DNA of 64,000 nt from an uncultured Litoreibacter sp. (lineage in GTDB: Bacteria; Pseudomonadota; Alphaproteobacteria; Rhodobacterales; Rhodobacteraceae). The first letter of the stretch is position 1; every line of letters begins with the position of its first letter. Position numbers and translations under genes: made by a program. The notes below the pieces were generated by a model, which was not told where the DNA came from, did no database searches, and was given only the letters and a program-made list of their open reading frames with translations. Shown here one piece after another: positions 28,493 to 49,829 of this stretch. The stretch is taken from the NCBI GenBank assembly GCA_947504205.1, contig CANNGL010000001.1, forward strand, positions 620,001 through 684,000. The letters run 5' to 3'.

Positions 28493-28515
28493 CTAGTAAT
28501 TCCAGAGAGTGCCAT
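28411..28515 (-). pseudogene. Short protein-like frame overlapping the end of the manD-type gene
   Basis: A 34-codon frame (MALSGITSAD start, VPFMPWRFR end) overlaps the last 23 bases of the ManD gene in another frame. Its tail (WLAQVEQMGLRSDDVPF) reads like a real C-terminus, so it may be the relic of a gene cut off by rearrangement, or a chance frame. Confidence 0.25.
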
Positions 28516-29719
28516 CTTCCAATCTTACTACAGGGTGGCTTCCAGGCGCATAGTCGTAGCGCTTTGCCATTTCTTCGTTGAAGTCTACACCAAGGCCGGG
28601 CGCATCACTCACGAAGAACAGACCATCTTCATGCCGGTGCTCTGATGGAAACATCTCGTCGCATTCTTGGGTGCCAAGCACCAAGTATTCCTGAATGCCA
28701 AAATTCGGAGCCCATGCATTCAGATGGGCCTGTGCCGCCATGGATATTGGCGAATGACTGGGGGCGCCGTGGAATCCAGTGCGGATGTTGTGCAGACCCG
28801 CAAGATCGACGATGCGCTTTACGTGGGTGATGCCACCCGCGTATGTGACAGCCACGCGAATGAAGTCGAAAAGCTCTTCTTCAATCAGTCTGTTGCAGTC
28901 CCAGATCGAATTGAACACCTCGCCTACGGCAATCGGTGTCGTAGAATGCTTTCTGATCAGGCGTAGTACATTCTGATCCTCGGCTGGTGTTGGATCTTCC
29001 AGCCAATAAAGTCCAATCGGCTCAACCTCTTTGGCGAATTGCGCCGCTTCGCGCGGGGTCAGGCGATGATGCACGTCGTGCAGTATTTTCAGTTCAGGCC
29101 CGAAACGGTCACGGATTTCCGCCAGAGCTTGCGGCATGAAACGCGTGTAGAGGTCGGTGTTCCAGACCTCCGTTTTAGGGCGGATGCCGCTAAAGTCTGT
29201 GATCAGGTCGTCAGTTAGGCCCTTTTGATCCGGGACAGCGTAGCTGGCCGTGGGCATTCCCGGAATGCCACATTGAACGCGGACCGCTTTGTAGCCCTGC
29301 GCGATGTAGCGTGTAACGCTGTCAATAAGGTCGGGCAGATCAGCGCCAGTGGCGTGGGCATAGGTCAGCGCACCTTCGCGGGATTTACCGCCAAAAAGTT
29401 GGTAGAGCGGCATATTCGCTAGTTTGCCCTTGATATCCCAGAGCGCCATGTCGATGGCGCCGAACGCTGCCATTGCGATTGGACCACGACGAAAATACGC
29501 CCCGCGATAGAAGAACTGCCATATGTCTTCTGAGTTGCGGGGATCCATGCCGATGAGGTTTGGGATCAGATAGTCCTGCAAGTAGATTGCAGGCAGCGTT
29601 TCACGATTGTTCAGGGTGGCGTCACCAAGTCCGTAAATCCCCTGATCCGTCATGATCTTCAATGTGACGTAGTTCTTTCCGGGACCACCGACAAAGATTT
29701 TAGCATCTGTGATCTTCAT
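28493..29719 (-). CDS. manD: D-mannonate dehydratase family protein (ManD, enolase superfamily)
   Basis: This 408-residue enolase-superfamily enzyme has an N-terminal capping domain and a TIM barrel. YAHATG (near 137), KILHDVHHRLTP with metal-ligand-type Asp (near 210), WLEDPTPAEDQ (near 236), AVGEVFNS (near 262) and TGFHGAPSHSP (near 312) follow ManD of Novosphingobium and relatives. The reaction would be D-mannonate to 2-keto-3-deoxy-D-gluconate; some members prefer gluconate or do neither. It lies 13 bp behind the MATE gene in the GntR-MATE-manD unit and feeds the same product as the lyase pathway. Confidence 0.85.
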   Translation of the reverse strand: MKITDAKIFVGGPGKNYVTLKIMTDQGIYGLGDATLNNRETLPAIYLQDYLIPNLIGMDPRNSEDIWQFFYRGAYFRRGPIAMAAFGAIDMALWDIKGKLANMPLYQLFGGKSREGALTYAHATGADLPDLIDSVTRYIAQGYKAVRVQCGIPGMPTASYAVPDQKGLTDDLITDFSGIRPKTEVWNTDLYTRFMPQALAEIRDRFGPELKILHDVHHRLTPREAAQFAKEVEPIGLYWLEDPTPAEDQNVLRLIRKHSTTPIAVGEVFNSIWDCNRLIEEELFDFIRVAVTYAGGITHVKRIVDLAGLHNIRTGFHGAPSHSPISMAAQAHLNAWAPNFGIQEYLVLGTQECDEMFPSEHRHEDGLFFVSDAPGLGVDFNEEMAKRYDYAPGSHPVVRLEDGTLWNY

Positions 29720-29732
29720 ACCGCTTGCTCCT

Positions 29733-31106
29733 TCACGCTGCGACGTCCGCGCGCTTCCATGCTCCGTGCCACAGGCGTCTGTGGAAGGCAGGGAATTTTA
29801 TGATCTCTTCCCAAAACATAAGAGATAACACCCAGACCGGTGGAATCTCGAGATAGAGCACTGCGACAGCTGTTGCTGGTACACGAAAGAGCCATTGGGA
29901 CCATACGAAGACGTGCATGACGTATATCGTGTCGCCGCTCGCGCGCAGCGTATTGCCACAGATGGCATTGGACTGTTTCGGGAAGGGCAGCACCAACAGC
30001 ACGATCACGAAACTCATCAATATAGTGCGGGTCTCAGGCGACAGGGCGGGGTAAAGCACGCCCGGCAAAAGGCAAATCACAGCATATAGAAGCGCCACGA
30101 TACCTGCGGCAACGAAGGCCATGCGCCATGCTGTTCTCAAAAACTGATCAAGCTCGGATTCGTTGCGCCGTTCGCCCAGAAGCTGAGCAACGATAATGCC
30201 AGTCGCCTGCGCCCATTGCATGCCAATAGTCCCTGCAACCATGACCCAGGGCATGATTAGCGTCATGGCCGCAAAGGCAGCAAGGCTCATTTGCGCGTAG
30301 ATCAGCATGCAAACCCGCGAGGCGAAATTCGCGCTGGCAAATGTAACCGCGATGGGCCAAGCGAAGACGAAATGCCTGCGCAGTGTCTGGGCAAAAGTCG
30401 CGTTGTGCCAACCTTCCGCGTGGCGTAGATGTCCGTCGGTGCGGCGCAGTTGTACGATCAGGTAGAGCGCTTGAACCGTGAGGGCGAATGCGCTGCCCAT
30501 TGCGGCACCGGCCACGCCGAAAGCGGGTACACCCCAAAGCCCGTGGATCAGTACGACACTGGCCAAAATATTGATCGGGATGGAGAGGCAATATCCATAA
30601 AGGGGTAGCTTGGCTTGTCCACATCCGTTGAAGTAGCTTGCTAAATTCTGGCCGATCGCCTCTGCCATGATCACAATTAAAAAGATCGATAGATACGCCC
30701 AGGCCTGTGCCGCTACGGTCGGGCTAGGGGCCATCATGCTGATCAGCGCTTCGCCCAGCGTTAGGATCGCCAAGACACCTATGACTCCGATGGTGAGGCC
30801 GACTGTCAAACCAGAGGCGAGCACAGATTTCAGAAAGACCGGGTCCTTCGATCCATAGGCCTGAGCGGTCCGGAGCTGCAAGGCATTAGAGAAAGCAAAC
30901 AAGACACCGGACACAAACCCTCCGATGGCCGCTGCAAGCCCCATGGCTGCGAGTGAGCCTTCGCCGAGAGATGCCACCAGCCAGCCGTCGATCACCACTG
31001 TGCCGTGTAAAAACACCGCCTTAAGCGTCATGGGCCATGCAAGTGCTACCACGTCGCCCGCGCCCGGGACGGGCTTGGCAGACGCGTTATCATCAGCGGT
31101 GGTCAT
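29733..31106 (-). CDS. MATE family efflux transporter
   Basis: This 457-residue polytopic protein has about twelve membrane segments in two similar halves, with PMTLKAVFLHGTVVIDGWLV at the start and the LQLRTAQAYGSKD region typical of MATE/NorM carriers. These export organic compounds using Na+ or H+. It sits between a GntR regulator and the ManD gene, 60 bp and 13 bp away, so it is most likely co-transcribed with uronate catabolism. The substrate is unknown. Confidence 0.85.
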   Translation of the reverse strand: MTTADDNASAKPVPGAGDVVALAWPMTLKAVFLHGTVVIDGWLVASLGEGSLAAMGLAAAIGGFVSGVLFAFSNALQLRTAQAYGSKDPVFLKSVLASGLTVGLTIGVIGVLAILTLGEALISMMAPSPTVAAQAWAYLSIFLIVIMAEAIGQNLASYFNGCGQAKLPLYGYCLSIPINILASVVLIHGLWGVPAFGVAGAAMGSAFALTVQALYLIVQLRRTDGHLRHAEGWHNATFAQTLRRHFVFAWPIAVTFASANFASRVCMLIYAQMSLAAFAAMTLIMPWVMVAGTIGMQWAQATGIIVAQLLGERRNESELDQFLRTAWRMAFVAAGIVALLYAVICLLPGVLYPALSPETRTILMSFVIVLLVLPFPKQSNAICGNTLRASGDTIYVMHVFVWSQWLFRVPATAVAVLYLEIPPVWVLSLMFWEEIIKFPAFHRRLWHGAWKRADVAA

Positions 31107-31166
31107 GGACCTTGTCCTGTTTGCTCAGGTGCTGCGCAAGATCGTTTCATGAGCCAGCGGAGCGAC

Positions 31167-31856
31167 CTAGTCAGCGGGCTCGAAATAGTTGGCGTTGGTC
31201 GCTGATATCCGCTCAATTGTCTGATCAAGACGGGACAGATGTATCATAGAGGCCGCAATGGAGCCTTCTGCATCATTTGCCTTGATAGCGTCGGCGATCT
31301 TGCGATGGTCGTTGATCAGTTCGGGCAAACGCTGTTCTTTCTCAAGTCCCAGCATGCATAGTCGGTCTATCTTCGACTTTTCCTTCTGGATCACTTCGAA
31401 GGCATAATCTGCCTGAGCAATCGCACAAATCGCTTTGTGGAAGTCGTAGTCCAGACGCCCGAAAGTCTCCACATCGCCGTTTGCGACAGCGGTCTCTTGC
31501 AACATCAGGGCCGCATTCAGCCTTGTGGCTCCGGCAGCATCACATCTTGTCGCAGCGCGGCGGAGCACTTCTTTTTCGATGGCTTCGCGAACAAATCGAG
31601 CTTTCTCGATTTCACGTTTAGAAAACCCGCGGACTTCTGTGGCGCGCTGTGGACGGATCAACAGGAGATCCAGATTGGCGAGGCGGCTGAAGGCATCCCG
31701 CACCGGTTGGCGGGACACTCCGAATTGTGCCGCGATCTCTGCTTCAGAAATGCGATCTCCCGGTTTCAACCGAAGTGTAGCGATCTGTTCATGCAGGTGA
31801 TCAAAGACATCGTCGACGCTGGTGCGTCGTTCGCTAAGTGTGGTCGGCTGCGCCAT
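31167..31856 (-). CDS. GntR family regulator, FCD type (first of two paralogues)
   Basis: This 229-residue FadR-subfamily regulator has an N-terminal winged helix with EIAAQFGVSRQPVRDAFSRL (about 38-57) and a C-terminal all-helical FCD ligand domain with metal-ligand-type Asp/His in DYDFHKAI. The frame is open upstream, but ATG 31856 has GGGAG before it and begins MAQPTTLSERR. It is clearly paralogous to the regulator at 39737-40420. It reads away from the ABC operon, and two copies of a palindrome-like motif lie between. Likely effector: a uronate-derived sugar acid. Confidence 0.9.
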   Translation of the reverse strand: MAQPTTLSERRTSVDDVFDHLHEQIATLRLKPGDRISEAEIAAQFGVSRQPVRDAFSRLANLDLLLIRPQRATEVRGFSKREIEKARFVREAIEKEVLRRAATRCDAAGATRLNAALMLQETAVANGDVETFGRLDYDFHKAICAIAQADYAFEVIQKEKSKIDRLCMLGLEKEQRLPELINDHRKIADAIKANDAEGSIAASMIHLSRLDQTIERISATNANYFEPAD

Positions 31857-31921
31857 ATGAAAACTCCCATTTCGGGTCGGGACATGCACTGCTCCTACCA
31901 GAGACCACACAGCAGCACCAG

Positions 31922-31955
31922 ACTAGTATTCCAGTTTTGTTACTAGTATACCAGT
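31922..31955. promoter_or_regulatory. Tandem putative GntR operators before the ABC arm
   Basis: ACTAGTATTCCAGT (31922-31935) and ACTAGTATACCAGT (31942-31955) differ at one base and are spaced 20 bp, about two helical turns. The core TAGTATACCA is close to the dyad TGGTATACCA typical of FadR-type GntR regulators of hexuronate genes. They lie between the divergent GntR and ABC genes, and a third copy precedes the TRAP operon. Confidence 0.7.
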
Positions 31956-32017
31956 CTGCATAATACGATTCGACCTCGGCGAACCGGGGCGGCACGGAAG
32001 ACCAGTGGGAGGAAACC

Positions 32018-33094
32018 ATGTCCGGTGTGAACCTGAGCGGGATCGTAAAGGCTTATGGTGCCGTGGAAGTCGTGCACGGGATCAATCTGGATGTGGCGGA
32101 AAAAGAGTTTGTTGTGCTCGTTGGGCCGTCCGGCTGCGGCAAGTCCACCACGTTGCGAATGATTGCTGGTCTGGAAGAAATCACTGCTGGCAATCTGATG
32201 ATCGACGGCCGCCGGATGAACCGAATTGCTCCGAAAGACCGCGATGTCGCGATGGTGTTTCAGAACTACGCGCTTTATCCACATCTCAATGTAGCCGACA
32301 ACATGGCGTTTGGTCTGCGCATTCGAAAAATGCCAAAGGCCGAGATTGCCACAACCATCGCTGATGTGGCCGAAATCCTCGGGTTGACCAACTATCTCGA
32401 GCGCCGTCCCGCTGACTTGTCAGGTGGGCAGCGTCAGCGCGTGGCGATGGGGCGAGCAATCGTTCGGCACCCCAAGGTGTTTCTGTTTGATGAACCGCTC
32501 TCAAATCTCGATGCAAAGTTGCGCACGCAGATGCGGGCGGAGATTAAGCGGCTCCATAACAGATTGGGTGTGACCTCAATTTACGTCACCCATGATCAGG
32601 TCGAAGCCATGACGCTTGCGGATCGTATCGTGGTCATGAACGACGGTGCGATCGAGCAAGTCGGCACGCCGATGGAATTGTTCAATCACCCTGCCAATAC
32701 ATTTGTCGCTGGCTTCCTTGGCTCTCCGCCGATGAACCAGATGAAGGGTGTTCTTACTGAACATGGGGCGAAGATCGGTGACACGGAAATCAAGTTTGAC
32801 GGATTTGCCAATGGTCAGGCCGGACGCGACGTGATCGTGGGCATACGCCCTGAACACGTGACGCTGGCAGCGGGTGAGCAGACCTCTGCGCTGCCTATCG
32901 AACTTGACCTGGTGGAACCTCTTGGTTCCGAAGCGCTGCTGCACGCGCGTTTTGGCAACGATAATGTAGTTTTCAAAGCGGATACCAAGGGCGACATTCA
33001 GCACCTTTCCGGCGTTGGAGAGGTTTATGTGCCAGCACCTCTGATCAAGCTTTTTGATGCCGAAACCGGCCACGCGCTGAACGCGAAAGGCTGA
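32018..33094 (+). CDS. ABC transporter ATPase, AlgS/UgpC type
   Basis: This 358-residue CUT1/MalK-type ATPase has Walker A GPSGCGKST (near 38), Q-loop FQNYALYPH, signature LSGGQRQRVAMG (near 135), Walker B VFLFDEPLSNLDA and the H-loop in VTHDQVEA. A C-terminal TOBE/OB regulatory domain (about 240-358) follows. It energises uptake by the two permeases downstream. An excellent GGGAGG site precedes ATG 32018. Gap to the next gene is 5 bp. Context with an AlgQ-type binding protein points to AlgS. Confidence 0.92.
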   Translation: MSGVNLSGIVKAYGAVEVVHGINLDVAEKEFVVLVGPSGCGKSTTLRMIAGLEEITAGNLMIDGRRMNRIAPKDRDVAMVFQNYALYPHLNVADNMAFGLRIRKMPKAEIATTIADVAEILGLTNYLERRPADLSGGQRQRVAMGRAIVRHPKVFLFDEPLSNLDAKLRTQMRAEIKRLHNRLGVTSIYVTHDQVEAMTLADRIVVMNDGAIEQVGTPMELFNHPANTFVAGFLGSPPMNQMKGVLTEHGAKIGDTEIKFDGFANGQAGRDVIVGIRPEHVTLAAGEQTSALPIELDLVEPLGSEALLHARFGNDNVVFKADTKGDIQHLSGVGEVYVPAPLIKLFDAETGHALNAKG

Positions 33095-33099
33095 AGCGA

Positions 33100-34098
33100 A
33101 TGGTCCAAGGGAACACTCCTGCACCCGGCTCAGCCATCGAAAGCGTGGAGGACACGCCTGACACACTACACGACACTTTCACCGACAGCCGCGGTTCGCG
33201 TCTCTACGATCACTTTAAACGTGAATGGCAGATCTACGTCATGCTGCTGCCCACAATCGTGTGGTTTCTCGTTTTTCTCTACAAACCGATGTACGGCCTG
33301 CAGATTGCGTTCAAGGATTACTCGATCTTCCGCGGCGTGGCGAACAGCCCGTGGATTGGGTTGGAGCATTTCGAGACGCTATTTTCGAACGATCAATTCA
33401 TCCGTGCGGTGACCAATACGATAAAGATCTCGGCGTTGAACCTGCTCTTTGGATTTCCCGCGCCGATTATTCTGGCTTTGATGTTCAATGAAATACTGCA
33501 CGCGACCTACAAGAAGACCGCGCAAACGATCGTCTATCTGCCTCACTTCATCTCATCGGTGATCATCGCCGGTATCGTGATCACGGCCTTCTCTCCGACG
33601 GCAGGGATCGTCAATACGATCATCGGATGGTTCGGGCTCGATCCCGTCTATTTCCTCACGCAGCCACAATGGTTCCGTCCAATCTTTGTAGGCACCGGGA
33701 TATGGCAGGAAGCTGGTTTTGGCTCGATCGTGTTTCTGGCGGCAATCGCGGGCGTCAATCCATCACTTTATGAAAGTGCTGTGGTGGACGGGGCAAACCG
33801 CTGGCAGATGATGTGGAAAATCACCATCCCGTCGATCCTGCCCACCATCTTGATCATGTTGATCATCCGCATTGGCAATATCATGGAAGTCTCGTTTGAG
33901 CTGGTGATCCTGCTTTATCATCCTGCCACCTATGAAACGGCAGATGTGGTCAATACATGGGTCTATCGGCAGGGCCTTCAGTCTGGACAATACGACCTCG
34001 CTGCGGCTGCCGGGCTGTTCAACGCAGTGGTTGCCTTTGTTCTCGTTATGACAGCCAACACGCTGTCGCGTCGCTTCTCACAGACGTCGTTGTGGTGA
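33100..34098 (+). CDS. ABC transporter permease, AlgM1/LplB type
   Basis: This 332-residue permease has a hydrophilic N-terminal arm (1-45) and six membrane segments. The opening YVMLLPTIVWFLVFLYKPMYG is typical of the LplB/AlgM1 group, and the EAA loop reads YESAVVDGANRWQMMWKITIPSI (about 225-247). It forms the channel together with the next gene product for oligosaccharide import. It lies in the operon ATPase-M1-M2-binding protein. Confidence 0.92.
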   Translation: MVQGNTPAPGSAIESVEDTPDTLHDTFTDSRGSRLYDHFKREWQIYVMLLPTIVWFLVFLYKPMYGLQIAFKDYSIFRGVANSPWIGLEHFETLFSNDQFIRAVTNTIKISALNLLFGFPAPIILALMFNEILHATYKKTAQTIVYLPHFISSVIIAGIVITAFSPTAGIVNTIIGWFGLDPVYFLTQPQWFRPIFVGTGIWQEAGFGSIVFLAAIAGVNPSLYESAVVDGANRWQMMWKITIPSILPTILIMLIIRIGNIMEVSFELVILLYHPATYETADVVNTWVYRQGLQSGQYDLAAAAGLFNAVVAFVLVMTANTLSRRFSQTSLW

Positions 34099-34111
34099 GG
34101 AGGGTGCAAGG

Positions 34112-34993
34112 ATGATGAACTGGAACCTTTACTCTCGCGGTGACAAGTTTTTCGCCATCGTCGTGTCGGTCCTGATCGGCATGTTCACCGTCGCGACACT
34201 ATACCCCTTCATCTACATCGCGGCGGTGTCTTTTAGCTCGGGTTTTGCGGCTCAGGCAGGCAAGGTAGTTCTGACGCCGATCGATGCCACGCTTGAGGCC
34301 TACGGCTACATCATAAAAGACCCGCAATTCTGGATCTCTTATCGCAATACGTTTATTTATACGATTGGCGGCACCTTGATGAGCCTCGCCTTCATCATTC
34401 CCGGGGCCTACGCGCTTTCGCGGCGTCAGCTAAAGGGTCGACGGTTCCTGAACCTCTTCGTTGCGTTTACGATGTGGTTTAACGCGGGCCTGATCCCATT
34501 CTTCCTGAATATGCGCGATCTGAACTTGCTGGATAGCATGTTTGGCATCATCCTCGCGTTTGCGGTCAACGCCTTCAATATCATCTTGTTGCGAAACTTT
34601 TTCGAGGCCATCCCACAAAGCTTTGAAGAAGCCGCGCGCATGGATGGGGCCAATGACTTTCAGGTGCTTTGGAAAGTCTTTATCCCGCTGTCCAAACCCG
34701 CGATAGCCACGATCACTCTGTTTTGCATCGTGTCGCGTTGGAACGGGTTCTTCTGGGCCATGGTTCTGCTGCAAAGCGAGGAGAAGATCCCGCTACAGGT
34801 TTTCCTGCGTCATACGATTGCCAACCTCAGCGACAATGACGAATTCGCAATCGTTCAAACCGATGCGGCTTTCAGCGCGGAGACCGTGACTGCCGCGATT
34901 ATTGTCTGCTCAATTATCCCGGTCCTGATCGTCTACCCGTTTATTCAGAAGTACTTCGAAAAGGGCATCCTGCTTGGGGGTGTCAAAGAATGA
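34112..34993 (+). CDS. ABC transporter permease, AlgM2/LplC type
   Basis: This 293-residue partner permease has six membrane segments and an EAA loop with FEEAARMDGANDFQVLWKV. The C-terminus FEKGILLGGVKE is the near-invariant end of LplC/YtcP/AlgM2 proteins. Length equals that of AlgM2 of Sphingomonas sp. A1 as recalled. A 13-bp gap separates it from the previous gene and 27 bp from the binding-protein gene. Confidence 0.92.
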   Translation: MMNWNLYSRGDKFFAIVVSVLIGMFTVATLYPFIYIAAVSFSSGFAAQAGKVVLTPIDATLEAYGYIIKDPQFWISYRNTFIYTIGGTLMSLAFIIPGAYALSRRQLKGRRFLNLFVAFTMWFNAGLIPFFLNMRDLNLLDSMFGIILAFAVNAFNIILLRNFFEAIPQSFEEAARMDGANDFQVLWKVFIPLSKPAIATITLFCIVSRWNGFFWAMVLLQSEEKIPLQVFLRHTIANLSDNDEFAIVQTDAAFSAETVTAAIIVCSIIPVLIVYPFIQKYFEKGILLGGVKE

Positions 34994-35020
34994 AGAAGAA
35001 ACCGCATATGGGAGGAAAAC

Positions 35021-36583: not shown

Positions 36584-36599
36584 GCAAATTTGACACCTA

Positions 36600-36626: not shown

Positions 36627-36652
36627 CTTGCTAATTGACGGGATCCCACTCA

Positions 36653-38953
36653 ATGCCGCGCGATACTCTTCCTGTGCTTGACGAACCGAAAGCTGGACGG
36701 CTGACGATCCAATATGGACCGACCGCTGATACCAAACTCGTCGAGAACCCACCGCGGTTTACGTGGATTCCAGTCATTGAAGAAGAGGCGCGCTACGTCC
36801 TGCGGATCAAGGGGCCGGACGGGGAGCGTGTCTATGACGACATACCCTTAAACTTCTTCACCCCACCTGATGTCTTGGCTCCGGGAGAGTATGGCTGGTC
36901 CTACGCCACCTGGGATGCTGAAGATGCGAAACCGGCCAGCGGTTGGAGTACGACCCGTAAGTTCGTCATCAATGATGAGTTAACAGAAACGCCGTTGCCG
37001 TCTCGCGTTGACCGGCTTGCCAAGCTCGACGACGGACACCCGCGCCTATGGATGACCCAAGAGCGATTGGCGGCGTTCAAATCGGCTGTAAAAGCCGATC
37101 CGGATCATTGCACATGGTCCACTTTCTTCGAGAAATCCGCACTGCCATGGATGGACCGCGATGTGATGGCGGAACCGGCAGGTTATCCAAATCATAAACG
37201 CGTCGCGTCGGTCTGGCGGCAGACCTACATTGATTGTCAGGAGCTGCTTTATGCGATCCGGCATCTGGCCATAGGCGGCAAGGTTACTGATGACGCAGAA
37301 ATGCTGGGCCGCGCCAAAGATTGGCTTCTGGCGGCGGCCTCGTGGGCACCTGACGGTGTGACCTCGCGCGCCTATACCGATGAGTGGGCCTTTCGGGTAA
37401 ACCTCGCGCTCGCCTGGGGGTATGATTGGCTTCACGATCAACTGAATGATGAAGAACGCGAAGCCGTGCGTGTGGCGCTTTTGGCGCGGACACGGGAGAC
37501 GGCGGACCACATCATCCAGAACGCACGCATCCAACTATTTCCATTCGACAGCCATGCGGTGCGTGCGGTGTCCGCTGTGTTGCTTCCCTCTGCGATTGCG
37601 CTGCTCGGGGAAGCGGAAGAGGCCGAAGACTGGTTACATTACGCGATCGAGTTTCTGTCGACCGTTTATTCGCCTTGGGGCGATAGCGATGGAGGCTGGG
37701 CTGAGGGGCCGCATTATTGGATGACCGGAATGGCGTATCTGATCGATGCTGCAAATCTTCTGAAAAGCTACACCGGTATTGATCTCTATCAACGGCCGTT
37801 CTTTCAGAAAACAGGTGACTTTCCCTTATACACCAAAGCGCCAGACACGCGTCGCGCGACCTTTGGGGACGACAGCACAATGGGCGACCTGCCTGCGGTC
37901 AAAATCGGGTTCAACCTGCGCCAGTTTGCCGGTGTGACAGGCAACGGCGCTTATCAGTGGTATTACGATGAGATAAAACGCACCAATCCCGGCACAGAGA
38001 TGGAGTTTTACAACTGGGGTTGGTGGGACTTCAATTTCGACGAACTCACATACCGCACCGATTTTCCCGAGGTAGAGGCGACAGCGCCGAAAGACGGGCT
38101 GCGTTGGTTCGGAGAAGTTGGCTGGGTCGCGATCCAGCAGGATATGAGCAGCCCCGAAGATCACATTCAGTTTGTGTTCAAATCCTCGCCCTTCGGGTCG
38201 GTTAGCCACAGCCACGGGGATCAGAATGCGTTTTGCCTGTCTGCCTATGGGGAGGATCTGGCGATCCAGTCGGGGCATTATGTGGCGTTCAACTCGTCCA
38301 TGCATCGTCTTTGGCGGCGCCAGACCCGTTCAAAAAACGCCGTTCTGATCAATGGAAAGGGGCAGTACGCCGAGAATGACAAGGCCAAGGCGATGGCCGC
38401 AACTGGTAAGATTGTTGCTGCGGAAGAGCGGGAAGATCACATCTTCATTCACGGCGATGCCACGGCTGCGTATCAGAGTCTGGCGCCCGAAGTGACACGG
38501 GTCGAACGCGAAATATACTTCGTTCGAGGCAGTTATTTCGTCATCGTTGATAAGGTGGATGCAGATGAGCCTGTCACCCTGGACTGGCTCCTCCATGCCA
38601 ATACACCGTTTGAGTTAGGCAAGACATCGTTCCGCAACACAGGCGAGAAGGCCGGGTTTTATGGTCAGGTCGTCTGGTCCGAGGCGGGCAAGCCTGAGAT
38701 AACTCAAGAAACCGGTTTCCCTGATGTGGACCCGATCGATTACGACGGGTTGCCGGTCAGTACATTTCTTAGCGCGCGCTACCCTGCCGCCAACCGACAC
38801 CGGGTGGCCACGCTGCTAGTGCCCTACAAGCTCGACGCGCCGAAACGGATTTTCAATTTCATGGACGATCAAGGTTATGACGCCGATCTCTATTTCACCG
38901 ATGCCGAGGAGAACACATTCAAAGTCGTTCTCAAGAAACTCGCCAACTCATAG
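36653..38953 (+). CDS. Oligoalginate lyase of polysaccharide lyase family 15
   Basis: This 766-residue protein is collinear with exolyase Atu3025 of Agrobacterium: an N-terminal beta domain (LTIQYGP onward), an (alpha/alpha) toroid (about 110-440) and a C-terminal beta-sheet domain of heparinase II/III type. His301 (FDSHAVR), Tyr355 (EGPHYWMTG) and His521 (SHSHGDQNAF) fall exactly 10 residues before His311, Tyr365 and His531 of Atu3025 as recalled. It has no signal peptide, so it acts in the cytoplasm on imported oligomers, releasing unsaturated monouronates. ATG 36653 is preferred over a TTG six codons upstream. Confidence 0.92.
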   Translation: MPRDTLPVLDEPKAGRLTIQYGPTADTKLVENPPRFTWIPVIEEEARYVLRIKGPDGERVYDDIPLNFFTPPDVLAPGEYGWSYATWDAEDAKPASGWSTTRKFVINDELTETPLPSRVDRLAKLDDGHPRLWMTQERLAAFKSAVKADPDHCTWSTFFEKSALPWMDRDVMAEPAGYPNHKRVASVWRQTYIDCQELLYAIRHLAIGGKVTDDAEMLGRAKDWLLAAASWAPDGVTSRAYTDEWAFRVNLALAWGYDWLHDQLNDEEREAVRVALLARTRETADHIIQNARIQLFPFDSHAVRAVSAVLLPSAIALLGEAEEAEDWLHYAIEFLSTVYSPWGDSDGGWAEGPHYWMTGMAYLIDAANLLKSYTGIDLYQRPFFQKTGDFPLYTKAPDTRRATFGDDSTMGDLPAVKIGFNLRQFAGVTGNGAYQWYYDEIKRTNPGTEMEFYNWGWWDFNFDELTYRTDFPEVEATAPKDGLRWFGEVGWVAIQQDMSSPEDHIQFVFKSSPFGSVSHSHGDQNAFCLSAYGEDLAIQSGHYVAFNSSMHRLWRRQTRSKNAVLINGKGQYAENDKAKAMAATGKIVAAEEREDHIFIHGDATAAYQSLAPEVTRVEREIYFVRGSYFVIVDKVDADEPVTLDWLLHANTPFELGKTSFRNTGEKAGFYGQVVWSEAGKPEITQETGFPDVDPIDYDGLPVSTFLSARYPAANRHRVATLLVPYKLDAPKRIFNFMDDQGYDADLYFTDAEENTFKVVLKKLANS

Positions 38954-38973
38954 GATGCACAGGAAGGACTGAA

Positions 38974-39717
38974 ATGAAACTTGCAGGAAAAACCGCCATC
39001 ATCACCGGGGGTGGGCGAGATATCGGTGCAGCGGTTGCGATCAAATTGGCCGCAGAGGGTGCGAATGTCGCCATTAATTATTTTGCCAGCAGTGCAGGCG
39101 CGGATAAAACCGTTGCACATATCGAAGCTGCCGGTGGCAAGGCCTTTGCCATGCAAGGTGATCTGAAAAAAGAAGATGATGTCAGCGCGCTCATCGCCAA
39201 AACTGTGGACACCTTCGGCGGTATCGATGTGCTCGTGAACAACGCCGGTGGTTTGGTCGCGCGCAAGAAGATTTCTGAGATGTCACTTTTGCACTGGAAA
39301 GAGGTGTTGGACGTCAATCTTACCAGCACGTTCTTGATGACAAATGCCTGCCTTCAGCACATGAAGTCGGGGGCTATCGTGAATCTGGCAAGTCAGGCAG
39401 GACGGGACGGTGGCGGGCCGGGGGCTGTCCCCTATGCAACGTCGAAGGGTGCCGTAATGACAATGACGCGCGGACTGGCGAAAGAGCTTGGGCCCGACAT
39501 TCGTGTGAATGCGCTCTGCCCGGGCATGATTGATACCGATTTTCATAACATCCACACTCCAGATGCAGGTCGCCGTGGCTTTGAAGCCAACGCACCGCTG
39601 AAGCGTCAAGGCCATGTCGATGATGCGGCGAACCTTGTCCTGTTTCTTGCTTGCGATGACAGCGCCTTCATAACGGGCGCAAACATCGACATTAACGGGG
39701 GAATGTTGTTCTCGTAG
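38974..39717 (+). CDS. SDR family oxidoreductase, probable DEH reductase
   Basis: This 247-residue classical short-chain dehydrogenase has the NNAG motif, Ser-Tyr-Lys catalysis with YATSKGAV, and the C-terminal IDINGGML. The nucleotide loop reads TGGGRDIG, with Asp where most members have Gly. It is the last gene of the ABC/lyase operon, 20 bp behind the lyase gene with AGGAAGGA before ATG. The position matches DEH reductases of alginate pathways, which reduce 4-deoxy-5-hexoseulose uronate to KDG. The activity is inferred from context. Confidence 0.75.
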   Translation: MKLAGKTAIITGGGRDIGAAVAIKLAAEGANVAINYFASSAGADKTVAHIEAAGGKAFAMQGDLKKEDDVSALIAKTVDTFGGIDVLVNNAGGLVARKKISEMSLLHWKEVLDVNLTSTFLMTNACLQHMKSGAIVNLASQAGRDGGGPGAVPYATSKGAVMTMTRGLAKELGPDIRVNALCPGMIDTDFHNIHTPDAGRRGFEANAPLKRQGHVDDAANLVLFLACDDSAFITGANIDINGGMLFS

Positions 39718-39735
39718 CCGGGTTCAGGGGCCCGG
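39718..39735. terminator. Short hairpin between converging operons
   Basis: CCGGG (39718-39722) pairs with CCCGG (39731-39735) in the 19-bp gap between the SDR and the second GntR gene. The stem is only 5 bp and has no T tract, so it is at best a weak bidirectional terminator. Confidence 0.3.
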
Positions 39736-39736
39736 A

Positions 39737-40420
39737 TCAGTCTTCGAAGTAAGACGGGTGTTCCTGCTGCACAGCTTTCAGCGTTACATCCAGACGCGAG
39801 AGATGTTTCATGCCAGCTTCAACGATGGCTGCTTCGTCGCCGCTTTCAAGATGTCGCACGATCTCTGTGTGGTCGCCCAAGAGCTCCCGCATGTGCTCGC
39901 TATCAGCGATACTGAGCAGACATAGCCGGTCGATTTCCCGTTTGGCTTCACCGATTATGTCGAAGGCATAGGGAACCTTGCCTGCGGCACACAGCCTTTT
40001 GTGAAACTGAGCGTCCAGATCATGGAACTTGGTTAGCGCACCATCGGCGATGGCGGCGCGCTGTTGGTCGAGGCACTTATGCAGGCTTTCAAGATCCCGT
40101 TTGGTCCAGTTCGCAACGGCGCGCCTGAGCACCTCACATTCGACCGTCTCTCGGAGAAACCTTGCGGAGGTGATGGCCTTGTTTGAAAACCGTTTCACGA
40201 CGGTGGCCTTTTGCGGGCGCACCAGCAAAAGACCAAGATTCTCAAGTCTGGCGAATGCGTCTCTCACAGGTTGACGCGAGACCTCTAGCTGGCTTGCCAC
40301 ATCTGCCTCAGAAATTTTCGCGCCGGGTAGCAGTTCAAGTGTCGAAATACGCTCGAACAGAAAATCGAATACGTAGTCGGCGGTCGTTTTGCGTCGCATC
40401 AACGGGACAACGTTAGCCAT
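39737..40420 (-). CDS. GntR family regulator, FCD type (second paralogue)
   Basis: This 227-residue FadR-type regulator has helix-turn-helix DVASQLEVSRQPVRDAFARL, with the same recognition helix SRQPVRDAF as the regulator at 31167-31856, and an FCD domain with DAQFHKRL. The two share most of the plan and many residues, including RPQ.AT.V and EVLRRA. It is the last gene of the TRAP/kdu arm but lies 122 bp behind kduD, so it may have its own promoter. Confidence 0.9.
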   Translation of the reverse strand: MANVVPLMRRKTTADYVFDFLFERISTLELLPGAKISEADVASQLEVSRQPVRDAFARLENLGLLLVRPQKATVVKRFSNKAITSARFLRETVECEVLRRAVANWTKRDLESLHKCLDQQRAAIADGALTKFHDLDAQFHKRLCAAGKVPYAFDIIGEAKREIDRLCLLSIADSEHMRELLGDHTEIVRHLESGDEAAIVEAGMKHLSRLDVTLKAVQQEHPSYFED

Positions 40421-40542
40421 GGTCTTCGTCTCTCTCTGGGCGTGCCAAGTCTATGGCCGCTTGCGCATTTCTGAGTGCCCTGAGGCAGGCACGGATTGGT
40501 CAAACAGTCTCTTACTGCCTCTCTGATGTGCTGGCTACCACG

Positions 40543-41268
40543 TTATCTTGCCAGCCAGCCCCCATCGACATTCAGGATCGAACCGTGGATGTACTTGGCT
40601 GCAGATGATGCGAGAAATACCGCGGCTTCCGCGATGTCATCTGGATCACCCCACCTGCCAGCGGGAATCCGATCCAGGATCGCCTTGTTTCGCTCGGGGT
40701 CTGCGCGCAGGGCGGTCGTGTTGTTTGTTGCTATGTATCCGGGTGCGATGGCATTTACGTTGATGCCGCCCGCGGCCCATTCGTTCGCCATGATCTTGGT
40801 CAGGCCCGCCAGACCATGCTTGCTGGCCGTATAGGACGGTACGCGAATGCCGCCTTGAAAAGAGAGAAGGGAAGCAATGTTGACGATCTTCCCTGACCCA
40901 CGAGGCAGGGCAGCCTTTGCGAATGCCTGAGAGGTAAAGAATGCGGCCTTCAGGTTCACATCCATCACCTCATCCCAGTCGGTCTCACCAAAGTTGACGC
41001 TATCTTCGCGTCGAATGATCCCGGCATTGTTGACAAGTATATTGATTGTGCGATCGGCAAATGTATCCTTGGCGGCCATAGGGTTTGCGAAATCGAGGGC
41101 GATCTCCTCGGCATTGTCGATCTGAGCTACGGTCTCGGCACAAGACGACCTGCCGGCGCAAATGACATGCGCACCAGCACGTCCCATTGCGACAGCGATT
41201 GCTTGGCCGATGCCGGTGTTGGCGCCGGTCACAAGTGCGGTCTGGCCTTTCAGGCTAAAGGCATTCAT
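40543..41268 (-). CDS. kduD: 2-dehydro-3-deoxy-D-gluconate 5-dehydrogenase
   Basis: This 241-residue SDR reduces 2,5-diketo-3-deoxygluconate (DKII) to KDG with NADH. It has the cofactor loop TGANTGIGQ (about 14-22), NNAGIIRRED, the catalytic YTASKHG and the end SILNVDGGW. It overlaps kduI by 4 bp, so both steps of the DKI-DKII-KDG route are translationally coupled. Confidence 0.92.
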   Translation of the reverse strand: MNAFSLKGQTALVTGANTGIGQAIAVAMGRAGAHVICAGRSSCAETVAQIDNAEEIALDFANPMAAKDTFADRTINILVNNAGIIRREDSVNFGETDWDEVMDVNLKAAFFTSQAFAKAALPRGSGKIVNIASLLSFQGGIRVPSYTASKHGLAGLTKIMANEWAAGGINVNAIAPGYIATNNTTALRADPERNKAILDRIPAGRWGDPDDIAEAAVFLASSAAKYIHGSILNVDGGWLAR

Positions 41269-42092
41269 CGCAGTTCATCCATGCCCACCATGTCCATATC
41301 GGTGAAGTCGACATTATCACCAGCCATGGTCCAGCAAAAAGTGTAAGCGGCTGTTCCAGCTCCACAATGGATCGACCAAGGCGGGGAGATCACCAATTCC
41401 TCGTTGGCCATGACAAGATGTCGTGTCTCATCAGGCTTGCCCATGAAGTGGAAAATGCGGGCATCTTCTGGTACATCGAAATAGAGGTAAGCCTCCATCC
41501 GTCGGTCGTGCAAATGGGCGGGCATCGTGTTCCACAAACTGCCCGGCTGGAACTGTGTATATCCCATAGCTAACTGACAGGTGTCGCAGACCTCCGGGTG
41601 CAGGAACTGGATGATGGTTCGTTCATTCGCGGTCTCACGGCTGCCGAGGTCCACGCGACGAGCATCACCAAGTTTGATCAGCTTAGTCGGGCAGGTGCGG
41701 TGTGCTGGCGCGGAGGTGATATAAAACCGACCACCACCGGAAAACGTGACTGGTCCCGATCCCATGCCGATATAGAGAAGCTCTCCATTCTCCAGAGTAT
41801 GCTCGTCATCGCCTGCGCTAACTTGGCCTGCCTCACCAATGTTGAGCACCCCCATCTCGCGCCGATCAAGAAAGCCTGCGGTGCCTGTCTCCGCCATATG
41901 GTCCAGCGTTAGAGTGCCGGATCCGGGCACGGCGCTGCCAACGATCAGCCGGTCGTAATGGGAGTAGATCAGATCAATCACTCCTTCTGCGAACAGGTCA
42001 CCGCGATGGAAATGTGACCGCAGGCCATCGGTATCGAGCGTCTTGGTGGTCTCCGGATCAATGGCGTACCGGGTTTCTGTCTTGAGGGTCAT
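41265..42092 (-). CDS. kduI: 5-dehydro-4-deoxy-D-glucuronate isomerase
   Basis: This 275-residue double-cupin isomerase converts 5-keto-4-deoxyuronate to 2,5-diketo-3-deoxygluconate. The metal site is visible as AHLHDRRMEAY (two His and Glu) near 193-203 and a further His in PPWSIHCG near 243. The N-terminal YDRLIVGSAVPG is a family marker. Length matches E. coli KduI. It is 12 bp behind kdgF. Confidence 0.95.
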   Translation of the reverse strand: MTLKTETRYAIDPETTKTLDTDGLRSHFHRGDLFAEGVIDLIYSHYDRLIVGSAVPGSGTLTLDHMAETGTAGFLDRREMGVLNIGEAGQVSAGDDEHTLENGELLYIGMGSGPVTFSGGGRFYITSAPAHRTCPTKLIKLGDARRVDLGSRETANERTIIQFLHPEVCDTCQLAMGYTQFQPGSLWNTMPAHLHDRRMEAYLYFDVPEDARIFHFMGKPDETRHLVMANEELVISPPWSIHCGAGTAAYTFCWTMAGDNVDFTDMDMVGMDELR

Positions 42093-42104
42093 ATCGTTTC
42101 CTTA

Positions 42105-42416
42105 TTAGAGAAAATCATCTCGGCGGGGGGTAAAACCATCAATCAGCTGTCCCGGCTCAAGGCAGATGCAGCCGTGAACTGCCTCGGATGGAATGACAAA
42201 GCTGTCTCCAGGGCCAACTTCAAATTCCTTATCGTCTACAGTGAAGCGGAACCGCCCGCTTTCGACATAGGTGGATTGGACATGAGGGTGATTGTGCAGC
42301 TTGCCTTCGGCACCTGCTTCGGCAAATCGAAATGCTACAACCATCATCTCCTTGCTTTCCGACAGAACCTGCCGTGTTACACCGGGGTCCGTGTCAATTA
42401 CCGGGAATGTGCTCAT
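42105..42416 (-). CDS. kdgF: KdgF, cupin acting on unsaturated uronates
   Basis: This 103-residue single-domain cupin has metal-binding HNHPHVQST (three His near 42-46), ESGRFRFTV and a later VHG. KdgF speeds ring opening of 4,5-unsaturated uronate monomers, from pectin or alginate lyases, to the linear 5-keto-4-deoxyuronate. It therefore links the PL15 lyase to KduI/KduD and the SDR. It lies between the TRAP genes and kduI in the same direction. Confidence 0.9.
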   Translation of the reverse strand: MSTFPVIDTDPGVTRQVLSESKEMMVVAFRFAEAGAEGKLHNHPHVQSTYVESGRFRFTVDDKEFEVGPGDSFVIPSEAVHGCICLEPGQLIDGFTPRRDDFL

Positions 42417-42443
42417 TTGCTGCCTCCTTGACTATTGCCTTTG

Positions 42444-42472
42444 AGCGGCGACGTCGGCTTACCCTCGCCGCT
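42444..42472 (-). other. Intra-operon hairpin between dctM and kdgF
   Basis: AGCGGCG (42444-42450) pairs with CGCCGCT (42466-42472) around 15 nt, just beyond the dctM stop. The stem sequence is the same as in the hairpin at 36600. No T tract follows. Confidence 0.45.
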
Positions 42473-42487
42473 TATTGCATGGGTGAC

Positions 42488-43771
42488 CTAGCCGCTGATC
42501 AGATTTGGCAGGGTCAGTGAAACGGCCGGGATAAAAGTGATCAGCATCAGTGCGAAAAGGATCGCGATGTAGAACGGCCAGATCGTTCGCACTGCTTTCT
42601 CCATAGGCAGTTTGCCAACCGCGCATCCGACGAACAGGCAGGATCCAACGGGCGGCGTGCATAGCCCAAGGCCAAGATTGACCAAAAGGATCATGCCGAA
42701 CTGATGCGGATCGATGCCAATGCTTGTGGCTACAGGTAGGAAAATCGGTGTGCAGATGAGGATCAGGGCGGCCATATCCATGATCATGCCGAGTATCAGA
42801 AGCACGAGATTGATCATCAAAAGAATGAGGATTGGATTGCTGGTGATGTCTGTCATCAGCACCACGGCTTTGCTGGGCACTCGGTAGAATGTCAGCATGT
42901 AGGCGAAGGCTCCTGCGCAGGCGATCAGGATCATTACCATCGCCGTCGTTTTCACCGACTGGGCGACGGCCGTGCAAAAAGACTGCCAACTCACGGCACG
43001 GTAGACGAGCGCCGTTACCAGAAAGGCGTATACCGCTCCAAAGGCACCGGATTCTGTTACGGTGAATATGCCGGACAATACGCCGCCGACGATGATTACA
43101 GCCGTCAATAGCCCTGGAAGGGCGCCGACAAAAGATAGGAACAAGGCCTCAAGCCCAGGAAATTTCTCGGCCCGGTAACCGCGCTTCACGGCGACGAGAT
43201 AGGCTGCAAGAGCGAGGCAAAGGCACATCAGGATGCCGGGAAGGACACCTGCCAGGAAGAGCTTGGAGATTGATACTCCAGTTCCTGCGGCAATGGCGTA
43301 GATGATCATATTGTGGCTCGGCGGAATGATAATGCCCGCGATGGATGATGTTACAGTCACATTGACCGCATAATCGGCCTCATAGCCCTTTTCCTTCATC
43401 ACCGGCACCAGGATGGACCCGAGCGCCGAGATGTCAGCAATAGCCGAGCCGGAGATGCCGCCAAACAACATTGAGGAAAATACGTTCACGATACCAAGAC
43501 CGCCCCGGACCGCACCCACCGCTGCAGAGGCGAAACGGACCAGCCGCGCGGCGATGCCACCGTGAAACATCAGATCGCCTGCAAAGATGAAGAACGGGAT
43601 CGCCAATAGCGCATTGACGTTGATGCCGGAGATAATGCGCTGGAACCCAATCATCAGCGGCAAGCCCTCGAATGCGAAAGCTGAAAGCGCCGCGATCCCT
43701 AATGCAAAGGCTACCGGCGTTCCGATCGCCACACAGAAGGCGAACAGCCCGAGAAGAAGGTAAATTCCCAT
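42488..43771 (-). CDS. dctM: TRAP transporter large permease
   Basis: This 427-residue DctM subunit has about twelve membrane segments. ALLAIPFFIFAGDLM (near 54), the SGSAIADISALGSILVPVM stretch and the IIIPPSHNMIIYA motif (near 150) are typical. It uses the Na+ gradient to move the ligand delivered by DctP. It follows dctQ by 9 bp. In this context the ligand is probably a monomeric or unsaturated uronate. Confidence 0.93.
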   Translation of the reverse strand: MGIYLLLGLFAFCVAIGTPVAFALGIAALSAFAFEGLPLMIGFQRIISGINVNALLAIPFFIFAGDLMFHGGIAARLVRFASAAVGAVRGGLGIVNVFSSMLFGGISGSAIADISALGSILVPVMKEKGYEADYAVNVTVTSSIAGIIIPPSHNMIIYAIAAGTGVSISKLFLAGVLPGILMCLCLALAAYLVAVKRGYRAEKFPGLEALFLSFVGALPGLLTAVIIVGGVLSGIFTVTESGAFGAVYAFLVTALVYRAVSWQSFCTAVAQSVKTTAMVMILIACAGAFAYMLTFYRVPSKAVVLMTDITSNPILILLMINLVLLILGMIMDMAALILICTPIFLPVATSIGIDPHQFGMILLVNLGLGLCTPPVGSCLFVGCAVGKLPMEKAVRTIWPFYIAILFALMLITFIPAVSLTLPNLISG

Positions 43772-43780
43772 GTATGGTCC

Positions 43781-44308
43781 TTATTCGATACTGTCGCGGC
43801 GCATGTCCGCACCCATCGCAAGGCGGATCAGATGGCCAACAGAAAATAGCAAGATTAGTGCGCCACCGATTGTCAGGGGCAGCGAGCGCAGCCCTTCCGG
43901 GACTTGCAATAAGGGAACGAGCGATTCCCATTTGAAAATCGTCAATTTCAGCCCATACCAAAACATAAAGGCGCCGAAGACTGCCATGATGACGTCGGTC
44001 ATCACAACGAGTAAAGCCCTCAGCTTGCGAGGCACCGCCGTCCGCAGCATTACAACTGAAAGATGCGTATTATCGTGCACGCCTACAGCTGCTCCCAGAA
44101 ACGCAATGAGCATGACGAGCAAAAGCGAGGCTTGTTCCACCCAAGTTGGTGTTGCGTTTAGCACGTAACGGCCAAATACGAGCCAGCCACCGATGATCGT
44201 GAGCACCACCAGTGCGGCGCCTGTGAGGATACGACAAATGAATGCCAAGGCATCCAGAGCGCGATCCATCTGACGCAGGCCACTTGGTATGTCTGACGTG
44301 TCTTGCAT
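43781..44308 (-). CDS. dctQ: TRAP transporter small permease
   Basis: This 175-residue DctQ subunit has four membrane segments. The conserved FGRYVLNATPTWVEQASLLLVMLIAFLG-like middle marks the DctQ family. It pairs with DctM in the membrane complex. It lies 82 bp after dctP, with a hairpin in that gap (about 44336-44360), and directly before dctM. Confidence 0.92.
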   Translation of the reverse strand: MQDTSDIPSGLRQMDRALDALAFICRILTGAALVVLTIIGGWLVFGRYVLNATPTWVEQASLLLVMLIAFLGAAVGVHDNTHLSVVMLRTAVPRKLRALLVVMTDVIMAVFGAFMFWYGLKLTIFKWESLVPLLQVPEGLRSLPLTIGGALILLFSVGHLIRLAMGADMRRDSIE

Positions 44309-44390
44309 GATATCAACCTAGTGGATCCCAAGGACCCGACACCAGTATTCTGGGTGCCGGATCACTGGGAGGTTTGTCAGGCCCAATTTA

Positions 44391-45374
44391 TCAGTCTGTT
44401 GCCTGGATAAGTTCAACCAACGGGCGTAGATCTGGATTGGTTGCAAAGTAACCTTCGTAGACTGGTGCCATTGCTTCTTGGAATGGTGCTTTGTCGGCGA
44501 CGGCGTTCACAACAACGCCTGCGGCTTCAACGGCTTTGCGGCTTGCCTCTTCGCGCTTGGTCCAGAGCTCGCGCTGCATCAGCGCCGATTCCTGCGCAGC
44601 TTCCCGAACGGCTGCCTGCATGTCGGCCGACAATGCGTTGAATGTATCGGTGTTGATGCAGACGCATTCGGGGATGATCAGATGTTGAGACAGAGAGTAA
44701 AAGCCTGCGACCTCAAAATGCCCTGTCGATTCATATGATGGCCAGTTGTTTTCCGCGCCATCTACAACACCTGTGCTTAGGGCTTGGTACACCTCTGCGA
44801 AAGCCATCGGAGAGGGGTTGCCGCCCAGCTCTGCGATCATGCCTGTGAACAGATCGTTGTTCATCACCCGCACCTTCATTCCGACGACGTCAGCCGGTGT
44901 GTTGATCGGGCGATCTCCGTTATAGAACGAGCGCGCGCCAGCATCGTACCATGCAAGCGGTGTCAGCCCCTGTTCGGCCATGCCAGCGGCAATCGCGGCA
45001 CCACCTTCACCGTCAAGCACGCGGAACATATGGGCGACGTCTTTAAAGATGAACGGAAGTGACACAACATTTGCGGCAGGAACAATTGGACCAATTGGAC
45101 CCAAGTTGAAGTTGCCTATCTGGAGTCCGCCGAGCCGCACTTGCTCAATTGCATCGGGTTGGCTGCCAAGTGTGCCCCCATGGAACATTTGCAAGTTGAT
45201 TTCGCCGTTGGTTTTTTCCGAAACCAGCTCGGCGAAGGCATCCATCGCAATAGTGTTTGGGTATTCTTCGACGTGAATATTCCAACCGCGCCAATCTTCA
45301 GCAACGGCCACTTGTCCGGCAAATGCAAGCGCGATAGCAGCGCCAGCGACGGACTTGGTGAAATTGGTAATCAT
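44391..45374 (-). CDS. dctP: TRAP transporter substrate-binding protein
   Basis: This 327-residue periplasmic binding protein has a signal peptide (1-25, AGQVAVAED) and a DctP fold. Key stretches are LPFIFKDVAHMFRVLDG, the ligand-arginine region MKVRVMNNDLF with Arg near 170, and VDGAENNWPSYEST near 210. The arginine binds the carboxylate of acid ligands. It is the first gene of the TRAP-kdgF-kduI-kduD arm, and a GntR-type motif lies 114 bp upstream. Confidence 0.93.
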   Translation of the reverse strand: MITNFTKSVAGAAIALAFAGQVAVAEDWRGWNIHVEEYPNTIAMDAFAELVSEKTNGEINLQMFHGGTLGSQPDAIEQVRLGGLQIGNFNLGPIGPIVPAANVVSLPFIFKDVAHMFRVLDGEGGAAIAAGMAEQGLTPLAWYDAGARSFYNGDRPINTPADVVGMKVRVMNNDLFTGMIAELGGNPSPMAFAEVYQALSTGVVDGAENNWPSYESTGHFEVAGFYSLSQHLIIPECVCINTDTFNALSADMQAAVREAAQESALMQRELWTKREEASRKAVEAAGVVVNAVADKAPFQEAMAPVYEGYFATNPDLRPLVELIQATD

Positions 45375-49797: not shown

Positions 49798-49829
49798 GTT
49801 ATTAACCTCTTTGTCCTGTTGGTCCGGGG

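Follow-up and report, generated by a model that had tools for sequence, protein, structure and literature searches.

What does the gene cluster at positions 28493-45374 of a 64,000-nucleotide stretch of DNA (hereafter the window) from an uncultured Litoreibacter sp. (GCA_947504205.1, contig CANNGL010000001.1, forward strand 620,001-684,000) feed on, and do its separate arms belong to one system? A first-pass annotation, made from the letters alone, had read the cluster as a locus for importing alginate oligosaccharides and cutting them to monomers, laid out as two converging arms and a left branch. Our analysis strongly favours the reading that it is a GntR-controlled regulon for scavenging alginate oligosaccharides. 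A large pool of carbon is held in alginate, and the locus describes a scavenger genotype in which an oligomer importer and an intracellular exolyase occur and no endolyase was found. The scavenger idea itself is already in print (PMC11482539). The core operon is also known, and our data suggest that what is added here is a GntR regulon with a conserved operator.

An alginate-type importer and lyase at the core

Gene families were assigned by Pfam, NCBIfam and PDB searches of the open reading frames (ORFs) of the window, and gene spacing suggested three transcription units. The plus-strand unit reads algS-algM1-algM2-algQ-PL15-SDR, where PL15 is a family 15 polysaccharide lyase and SDR a short-chain dehydrogenase/reductase, with gaps of 5-51 bp (5-27 bp among the importer genes). 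Converging with it on the minus strand is dctP-dctQ-dctM-kdgF-kduI-kduD-gntR2, which begins with a tripartite ATP-independent periplasmic (TRAP) transporter and whose spacing ranges from a 4-bp overlap to 122 bp. The left unit, gntR1-MATE-manD, is also on the minus strand and diverges from algS. Positions and strands thus bear out the converging arms and left branch, and every gene that had been listed (the AlgS-M1-M2-Q importer, PL15, KdgF, SDR, KduI, KduD, ManD and TRAP) was found as an ORF in its place with a matching family or structure signature, that of dctQ being weak (35 bits). Three more genes can be added to that list, one for a MATE transporter (29733-31106) and two for GntR/FCD regulators (31167-31856 and 39737-40420).

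The importer consists of an algS-like ABC ATPase with MalK OB and TOBE domains (32018-33094; PF00005, PF17912 and PF08402), algM1-like and algM2-like permeases (33100-34098 and 34112-34993, each assigned by PF00528 and synteny) and an algQ-like periplasmic alginate-oligomer binding protein (35021-36583), which matched AlgQ1 (3vlu) at 560.7 bits and AlgQ2 (4tqu) at 559.6 bits. The calcium loop DPNGNGEADE reported by the first-pass annotation is present at AlgQ residues 200-209 and aligns with DPNGNGKADE of AlgQ1 and AlgQ2. From one ATPase and two distinct permeases encoded in a single operon with a binding protein that has the DPNGNG-ADE loop, we infer that AlgSM1M2-Q imports alginate oligomers.

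The PL15 protein (36635-38953) aligned to Atu3025 (3a0o) from end to end, residues 10-768 against 11-774 with the N-terminal domain included, at 1074.4 bits. It had been claimed that three active-site residues are kept at a constant offset to Atu3025. The residues are kept, with H307, Y361 and H525 aligning to H311, Y365 and H531, but the offsets are 4, 4 and 6. His311 and Tyr365 of Atu3025 are named as catalytic in PMC11921355. The nearest experimental relative, 69% identical, is the PL15 gene of Falsirhodobacter sp. alg1 (L051), whose product AlyFRB is classed as PL15_1 (PMC11921355) and released only 4-deoxy-L-erythro-5-hexoseulose uronate (DEH) from alginate (PMC4866713). Judged by homology, the window lyase is a PL15_1-type exolytic oligo-alginate lyase, its exolytic release of DEH being taken over from AlyFRB. 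We considered whether the ABC/PL15 arm might instead have a different polyuronate as its substrate, for example glucuronan oligomers or heparin-like ones. In favour of this, the window lyase carries a heparinase II/III domain, and PL15_2 enzymes act on heparin (PMC11921355). However, the PL15_2 heparinase structure 6lja gave 75 bits against the 1074.4 bits for Atu3025, so that the lyase is not closest to the BIexoHep type, AlgQ scored about 560 bits against proteins that bind alginate, and the homologue AlyFRB yields DEH from alginate (PMC4866713). This alternative is weak, and we regard it as highly improbable. A second heparinase II/III protein is encoded elsewhere in the genome (C2:894532), flanked by ORFs that read by eye as purH and an RNA methyltransferase.

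Relatives of the locus were collected in one scan of 84,980 species genomes, which gave 162 stretches with a relative; the best 80 were kept, mostly from Rhodobacterales, with 12 from Granulosicoccaceae and a few from elsewhere. Gene matches in these loci were counted by tblastn (at least 38% identity and at least 30% query coverage); 60 of the 80 are at least 20 kb long and the rest are cut by contig ends. The SDR that closes the plus-strand unit (38974-39717, assigned to SDR families) has a match in 72 of the 80 and is, from its position, likely to be the DEH reductase. Against this assignment, it scored 125 bits to the DEH reductase structure 4tkl and was closer to many other SDRs, among them 4yqy (333 bits) and 3edm (262 bits), which are listed without a specific function.

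The lyase, the binding protein and the operon order all match experimentally studied alginate systems, which supports the alginate-oligomer reading of the first-pass annotation. In the alyFRB operon of Falsirhodobacter sp. alg1, an ATPase, two permeases, a binding protein, PL15 and a DehR-like SDR stand in the same order (PMC4866713), and GntR1, MATE and TRAP genes lie beside the operon as they do here. Unlike the window, L051 has its TRAP genes within the GntR1 arm, has no match to kduI/kduD, kdgF or manD within 10-kb flanks, and belongs to a genome with a stand-alone PL7 endolyase (PMC4866713), with which our PF08787 search agrees. The atu3025 cluster of Agrobacterium fabrum, whose gene order is conserved with Falsirhodobacter (PMC4866713), and the algS-M1-M2-Q1/Q2 genes with A1-IV of Sphingomonas sp. 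A1 share the importer type and the PL15 lyase with the window. Strain A1, in contrast, takes in the polymer itself through a pit, and its cells contain endolyases (PMC8286568, PMC8778563). The window differs from both in its added TRAP/Kdu/ManD arm and in that no endolyase was found among the families searched (PL5, PL7/18 and PL6).

This last point follows from a search of the genome, which is 99.96% complete in 10 contigs: PF05426, PF08787 and PF14592 (PL5, PL7/18 and PL6) had no matches, other endolyase families not being searched, and within that scope the earlier statement that there is no secreted endolyase stands. The PF08787 search itself works, as it matched none of 14 control genomes and 17 of the 47 genomes of relatives, which represent 49 of the 80 loci described above less L007 and L052; the PL7/18 match is accordingly absent in 30 of the 47, where other lyase families were not searched. 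We infer that the cell feeds on oligomers released by others, which is consistent with the lack of a PL5/6/7/18 match. Reliance on oligomers from other bacteria has been proposed for another roseobacter, Yoonia sp. SS1-5, which is reported, in a gene list that names no operon, importer or regulator, to have PL15 without PL5 or PL7, like the window (PMC11482539).

A palindromic operator before algS and dctP

We found a palindromic operator, ACTAGTATACCAGT, of which the gntR1-algS interval has two copies spaced by 20 bp (copy 1, ACTAGTATTCCAGT, at 31922-31935; copy 2, ACTAGTATACCAGT, at 31942-31955) and a third copy lies 114 bp before dctP (ACTAGCATACCAGA, 45488-45501). gntR1 itself (31167-31856, minus strand; PF00392 and PF07729) has an alternative GTG start at 31910. 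The pattern ACTRGYATACCAGW, with up to two mismatches, had seven matches, counting both strands, at five places in the window, where 0.76 would be expected; none of 100 shuffles reached seven. Two of these places, 28285 and 30802, have two mismatches each and were taken as chance. Across the genome, both exact matches of the degenerate operator fall at this locus. The unity of the arms that the first-pass annotation had implied is supported by this operator common to the algS and dctP upstream regions; we did not find it described in print as tying such arms together, in a literature search with limited reach into subscription journals.

The operator is conserved in relatives. The algS upstream stretch was usable in 74 of them (L077 excluded), and 60 of the 74 had the operator with up to three mismatches to the full palindrome; a second copy (up to four mismatches) lay exactly 20 bp away in 36 of these 60. 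The site tracks the GntR1 gene, being present in 58 of 61 loci with GntR1 and in 2 of 13 without it (Fisher P 6e-9, which is overstated since the loci are related). We trained a matrix on the 60 algS sites, using 260 bp upstream, and scanned the rest of the 80 loci, without the algS stretch, for sites scoring at least 14. It gave 40 sites, of which 33 precede labelled locus genes by no more than 350 bp, compared with 1-15 sites, 0-2 of them so placed, for each of ten column-permuted matrices.

To read these sites by target, the gene content of the 80 loci has to be kept in mind: GntR1 was matched in 63, MATE in 54, KdgF in 60, SDR, as noted, in 72 and KDG kinase, the enzyme for 2-keto-3-deoxygluconate (KDG), in 29, and the other genes in fewer (ManD 27, UxuA 14, KduI 16, KduD 18, DctP 14, DctM 19 and GarR-like reductase 20). 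The operator stands before dctP in 11 of the 14 loci that have it, and before kdgF in 7 of 60, MATE in 5 of 54, kdgK in 4 of 29, a ManD-linked reductase in 3 of 9 and kduI in 1 of 16. Low fractions are expected because many of these genes sit inside operons. Six further sites precede GntR1-type genes, those of L028 and L071 falling outside the 260-bp training stretch but within or close to the gntR1-algS region, and single loci have a site before GntR2, the GarR-like gene, the SDR or F24, a family read by eye as an ABC protein.

Several observations speak against an operator-defined regulon of this kind. At up to three mismatches, no algS operator was found in L011, L026 and L074 despite the presence of GntR1, and L043 and L053 have the operator without a nearby GntR1. 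In the relatives, neither ManD (0 of 27) nor UxuA (0 of 14) has a site immediately ahead of it. Within the window, the dctP site is the weakest of the three by the matrix (16.7 versus 21.1 and 25.9). In the whole genome, the pattern had six matches with up to one mismatch, four of them at the locus, versus 11 for the reversed pattern. Since this control exceeds the real count, it is the location and conservation of the sites, and not their number, that carry the argument. Sites of FCD-type GntR proteins are often short AT-centred palindromes, and the higher count of the reversed pattern would also fit a general GntR/FCD site unrelated to the pathway. Yet the exact matches are both at this locus, 33 sites lie upstream of locus genes where permuted matrices placed at most two, and the operator follows the presence of GntR1; we think a general site distinctly unlikely. 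An extension of the regulon to the rest of the genome was rejected: the two extra one-mismatch sites (L085 and L087) lie in or between genes that look unrelated by eye, with the reversed control higher. No site reached a matrix score of 14 in 102,903 bases taken from other parts of this genome.

Which of the two regulators binds the operator? GntR1 and GntR2 (39737-40420, minus strand) are 46% identical overall. They have 41 of 61 residues in common in the winged-helix region, including VSRQPVRDAF, and 45 of 120 in the FCD domain, and because the winged-helix regions are the more alike, both proteins may bind the same site. A caution is that the GntR2 type is rare, as among the clustered GntR ORFs only GntR2 and two others (38% and 30% identical) are nearer to GntR2 than to GntR1. 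GntR control of alginate use has precedents elsewhere. In the flavobacterium Zobellia galactanivorans, the AusR regulon is governed by a GntR-family repressor of alginate catabolism (cited in PMC8286568). The alginate locus of Vibrio sp. C42 has GntR regulators, kdgF, dehR, kdgK and eda, with a tripartite transporter in uptake, and there, too, a MATE gene adjoins gntR by locus tag, in which the authors saw no apparent relation and which they left unstudied (PMC13390454). Unlike the window, this strain has TTT and SSS importers and eight secreted lyases, and its ABC transporter genes are not induced by alginate (PMC13390454).

The second minus-strand arm starts with dctP, the TRAP binding protein (44391-45374; NF037995, 228.3 bits), followed by dctQ, the small permease assigned by position (43781-44308; NF007374, 35 bits, under the cut-off of 260), and dctM, the large permease (42488-43771; TIGR00786, 424 bits). 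After these come a kdgF-like cupin (42105-42416), which matched a characterised KdgF (5fq0, 68.2 bits, E 6.9e-18) and had no NCBIfam match at E 1e-20, kduI (41265-42092; NF002091, 389.5 bits, above the equivalog cut-off of 250) and kduD (40543-41268; TIGR01832, 366.8 bits, above the equivalog cut-off of 338.85). This arm and ManD could form a separate pathway for glucuronate, galacturonate or pectin-type uronates that merely lies beside the alginate operon. The best PDB match of DctP is 4ovq (583.1 bits), which we take to be a glucuronate-binding protein, so that the TRAP system could serve glucuronate. KduI and KduD are the classical pectin-side route to KDG (PMC7953866). Elsewhere in the genome we located a glucuronate isomerase, UxaC (508.9 bits), and a fructuronate-reductase-like gene (263 bits, under the cut-off of 603), with which TRAP and ManD could likewise serve glucuronate; ManD could complete such a route because tblastn with ManD and a relative's UxuA gave no match at E 1e-5 within 19.9 kb around these two genes. 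These are points against one alginate system. They are opposed by the operator before dctP, both in the window and in the relatives that have the gene, by the position of dctP in several relatives, among them the alginate degrader L051, where it directly adjoins GntR1 and algS, and by the operator borne by kdgF, the head of kdgF-kduI-kduD, in L021, L027 and L077. On this evidence a separate pathway seems rather unlikely to us. The operator suggests that two transporters and a usually omitted side branch belong to the same system as the importer and lyase, and it makes the regulon testable, giving a guilt-by-association handle on TRAP, MATE and the mannonate branch.

Proposed routes to KDG and the mannonate branch

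Read as one alginate regulon, the locus would work as follows. Oligomers produced outside by other organisms would enter the periplasm, be bound by AlgQ and be imported through AlgSM1M2, and the PL15 enzyme would cut unsaturated monomers off the chain, probably in the cytoplasm. KdgF would help the monomers to open to DEH, and the SDR would reduce DEH to KDG. Isomerisation removes the stereocentre that distinguishes DEH from the pectin-derived 4-deoxy-L-threo-5-hexosulose uronate (DKI), and for this reason KduI followed by KduD could reach KDG by a second route. From KDG, a KDG kinase and Eda, whose genes lie outside the locus, would lead to pyruvate and glyceraldehyde-3-phosphate. Uronate-type monomers are the most likely cargo of the TRAP transporter. 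Until an intermediate is bound, GntR1, GntR2 or both would repress the two promoters via ACTAGTATACCAGT, the direction of control and the nature of the inducer being presumed.

The lower pathway, for which the first-pass annotation had proposed looking for kdgK and eda, is probably encoded outside the locus. We found edd (959 bits), eda (234 bits) and a KDG-kinase candidate that is 42% identical to the kinase of L019 and matched NF052444 at 311.8 bits. Both this candidate and its query, the L019 kinase (218.3 bits), fall short of the curated cut-off of 400, and this weighs against a firm assignment. A GarR-like homologue, 55% identical, is also encoded elsewhere (L112). It may be a second DEH reductase, by analogy with Vibrio DehR-2, which is 34% identical to GarR and active on DEH (PMC13390454).

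Why would such a locus include a mannonate dehydratase? The third gene of the left unit, manD (28493-29719, minus strand, 13 bp after MATE), encodes a D-mannonate dehydratase of the enolase superfamily (NF043051, 627.8 bits, above the cut-off of 550; ManD relatives in the PDB). From each oligomer that an exolyase degrades, a single saturated uronate is left over, and D-mannuronate and D-glucuronate share the ketose D-fructuronate. UxaC, the fructuronate reductase and ManD could on that ground carry the saturated end unit to KDG, with activity on mannuronate assumed from the chemistry. A mannonate dehydratase of either kind lies within the locus in 36 of the 80 relatives, which fits such a salvage but is not proof of it. 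We asked whether ManD and UxuA replace each other, and found no significant exclusion in the 60 loci of at least 20 kb (both 3, ManD only 19, UxuA only 8, neither 30; Fisher P 0.73). Nine relatives have a Gfo/Idh/MocA-type protein (read by eye; no NCBIfam match at E 1e-30), which in eight of them (L005, L010, L014, L017, L018, L033, L034 and L056) is directly beside ManD. With the operator upstream in three relatives, this protein is a candidate mannuronate-to-mannonate reductase. In the window's own genome it had 11 weak matches, the best with 28% identity across a portion of its length, so mannonate would have to be formed here in some other way. Our literature searches, in the accessible texts, turned up no salvage route for mannonate dehydratase with alginate and nothing on a mannuronate reductase with alginate.

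The MATE-family transporter (29733-31106, minus strand; PF01554, 103 bits) is, as given above, within the locus in 54 of the 80 relatives, and a search for MATE with alginate or polysaccharide utilisation in Rhodobacteraceae found nothing on point in the accessible texts. It is possible, though we put it forward tentatively and with more doubt than belief, that the alginate loci of Rhodobacterales are one GntR/FCD regulon whose operator (ACTAGTATACCAGT, often twice, 20 bp apart) moves with the modules, and of which MATE and the mannonate-dehydratase branch are real parts. ManD would then salvage the saturated end uronate, with the Gfo/Idh/MocA reductase in relatives and via UxaC and fructuronate reductase here, and the cargo of MATE would be a uronate intermediate rather than a drug; the transporter might, for instance, vent DEH, which is a reactive aldehyde.

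Distribution of the lyase and neighbouring ORFs

PL15 was found in 44 of the 394 genomes of the window's family, its own genome included. A single further genome of this genus was searched (G218), and it lacks PL15. In two family genomes (G380 and G096), a single TGA interrupts a PL15 match that is otherwise full-length, and in G326 the match is limited to N-terminal residues 9-302 and has one TAG; lyase decay and sequencing error are both possible. AlgQ accompanies PL15 in 78 of the 80 loci, and its identity to the window protein is two-peaked, at 60-65% in 31 of the 78 and 75-85% in 28. AlgQ identity is uncorrelated with that of PL15 (rho -0.05, n=78) and correlated with that of AlgM2 (rho 0.68). 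The high-identity type (81-89%) was seen in 10 of the 12 Granulosicoccaceae loci and in a metagenome-assembled genome of Rhizobiaceae (L074); L039 had 69% and L082 was too short. These comparisons suggest that the importer genes and the lyase have different histories, importer cassettes probably having been swapped inside the operon. Among the other families counted in the relatives' loci are F16, glucarate-dehydratase-like (under the cut-off), F19, RraA-like by eye, and F24, the ABC protein mentioned above.

The remaining ORFs of note in the window were named by eye. Beside dctP, at 45802-47647 on the plus strand, are a small cytochrome-c-like ORF and a 467-residue protein resembling sugar dehydrogenases of the pyrroloquinoline quinone type. 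A look-alike of the error-prone polymerase cassette DnaE2-ImuB-ImuA spans 18427-23841, and a 449-residue protein at 24397-25746 has a signal-like N terminus and then a long low-complexity stretch rich in Gln, Met and Arg. At 48196-50984, the ORF of a BCCT-like transporter shares 4 bp with an ORF for a PotD-like periplasmic binding protein, an unusual pairing.

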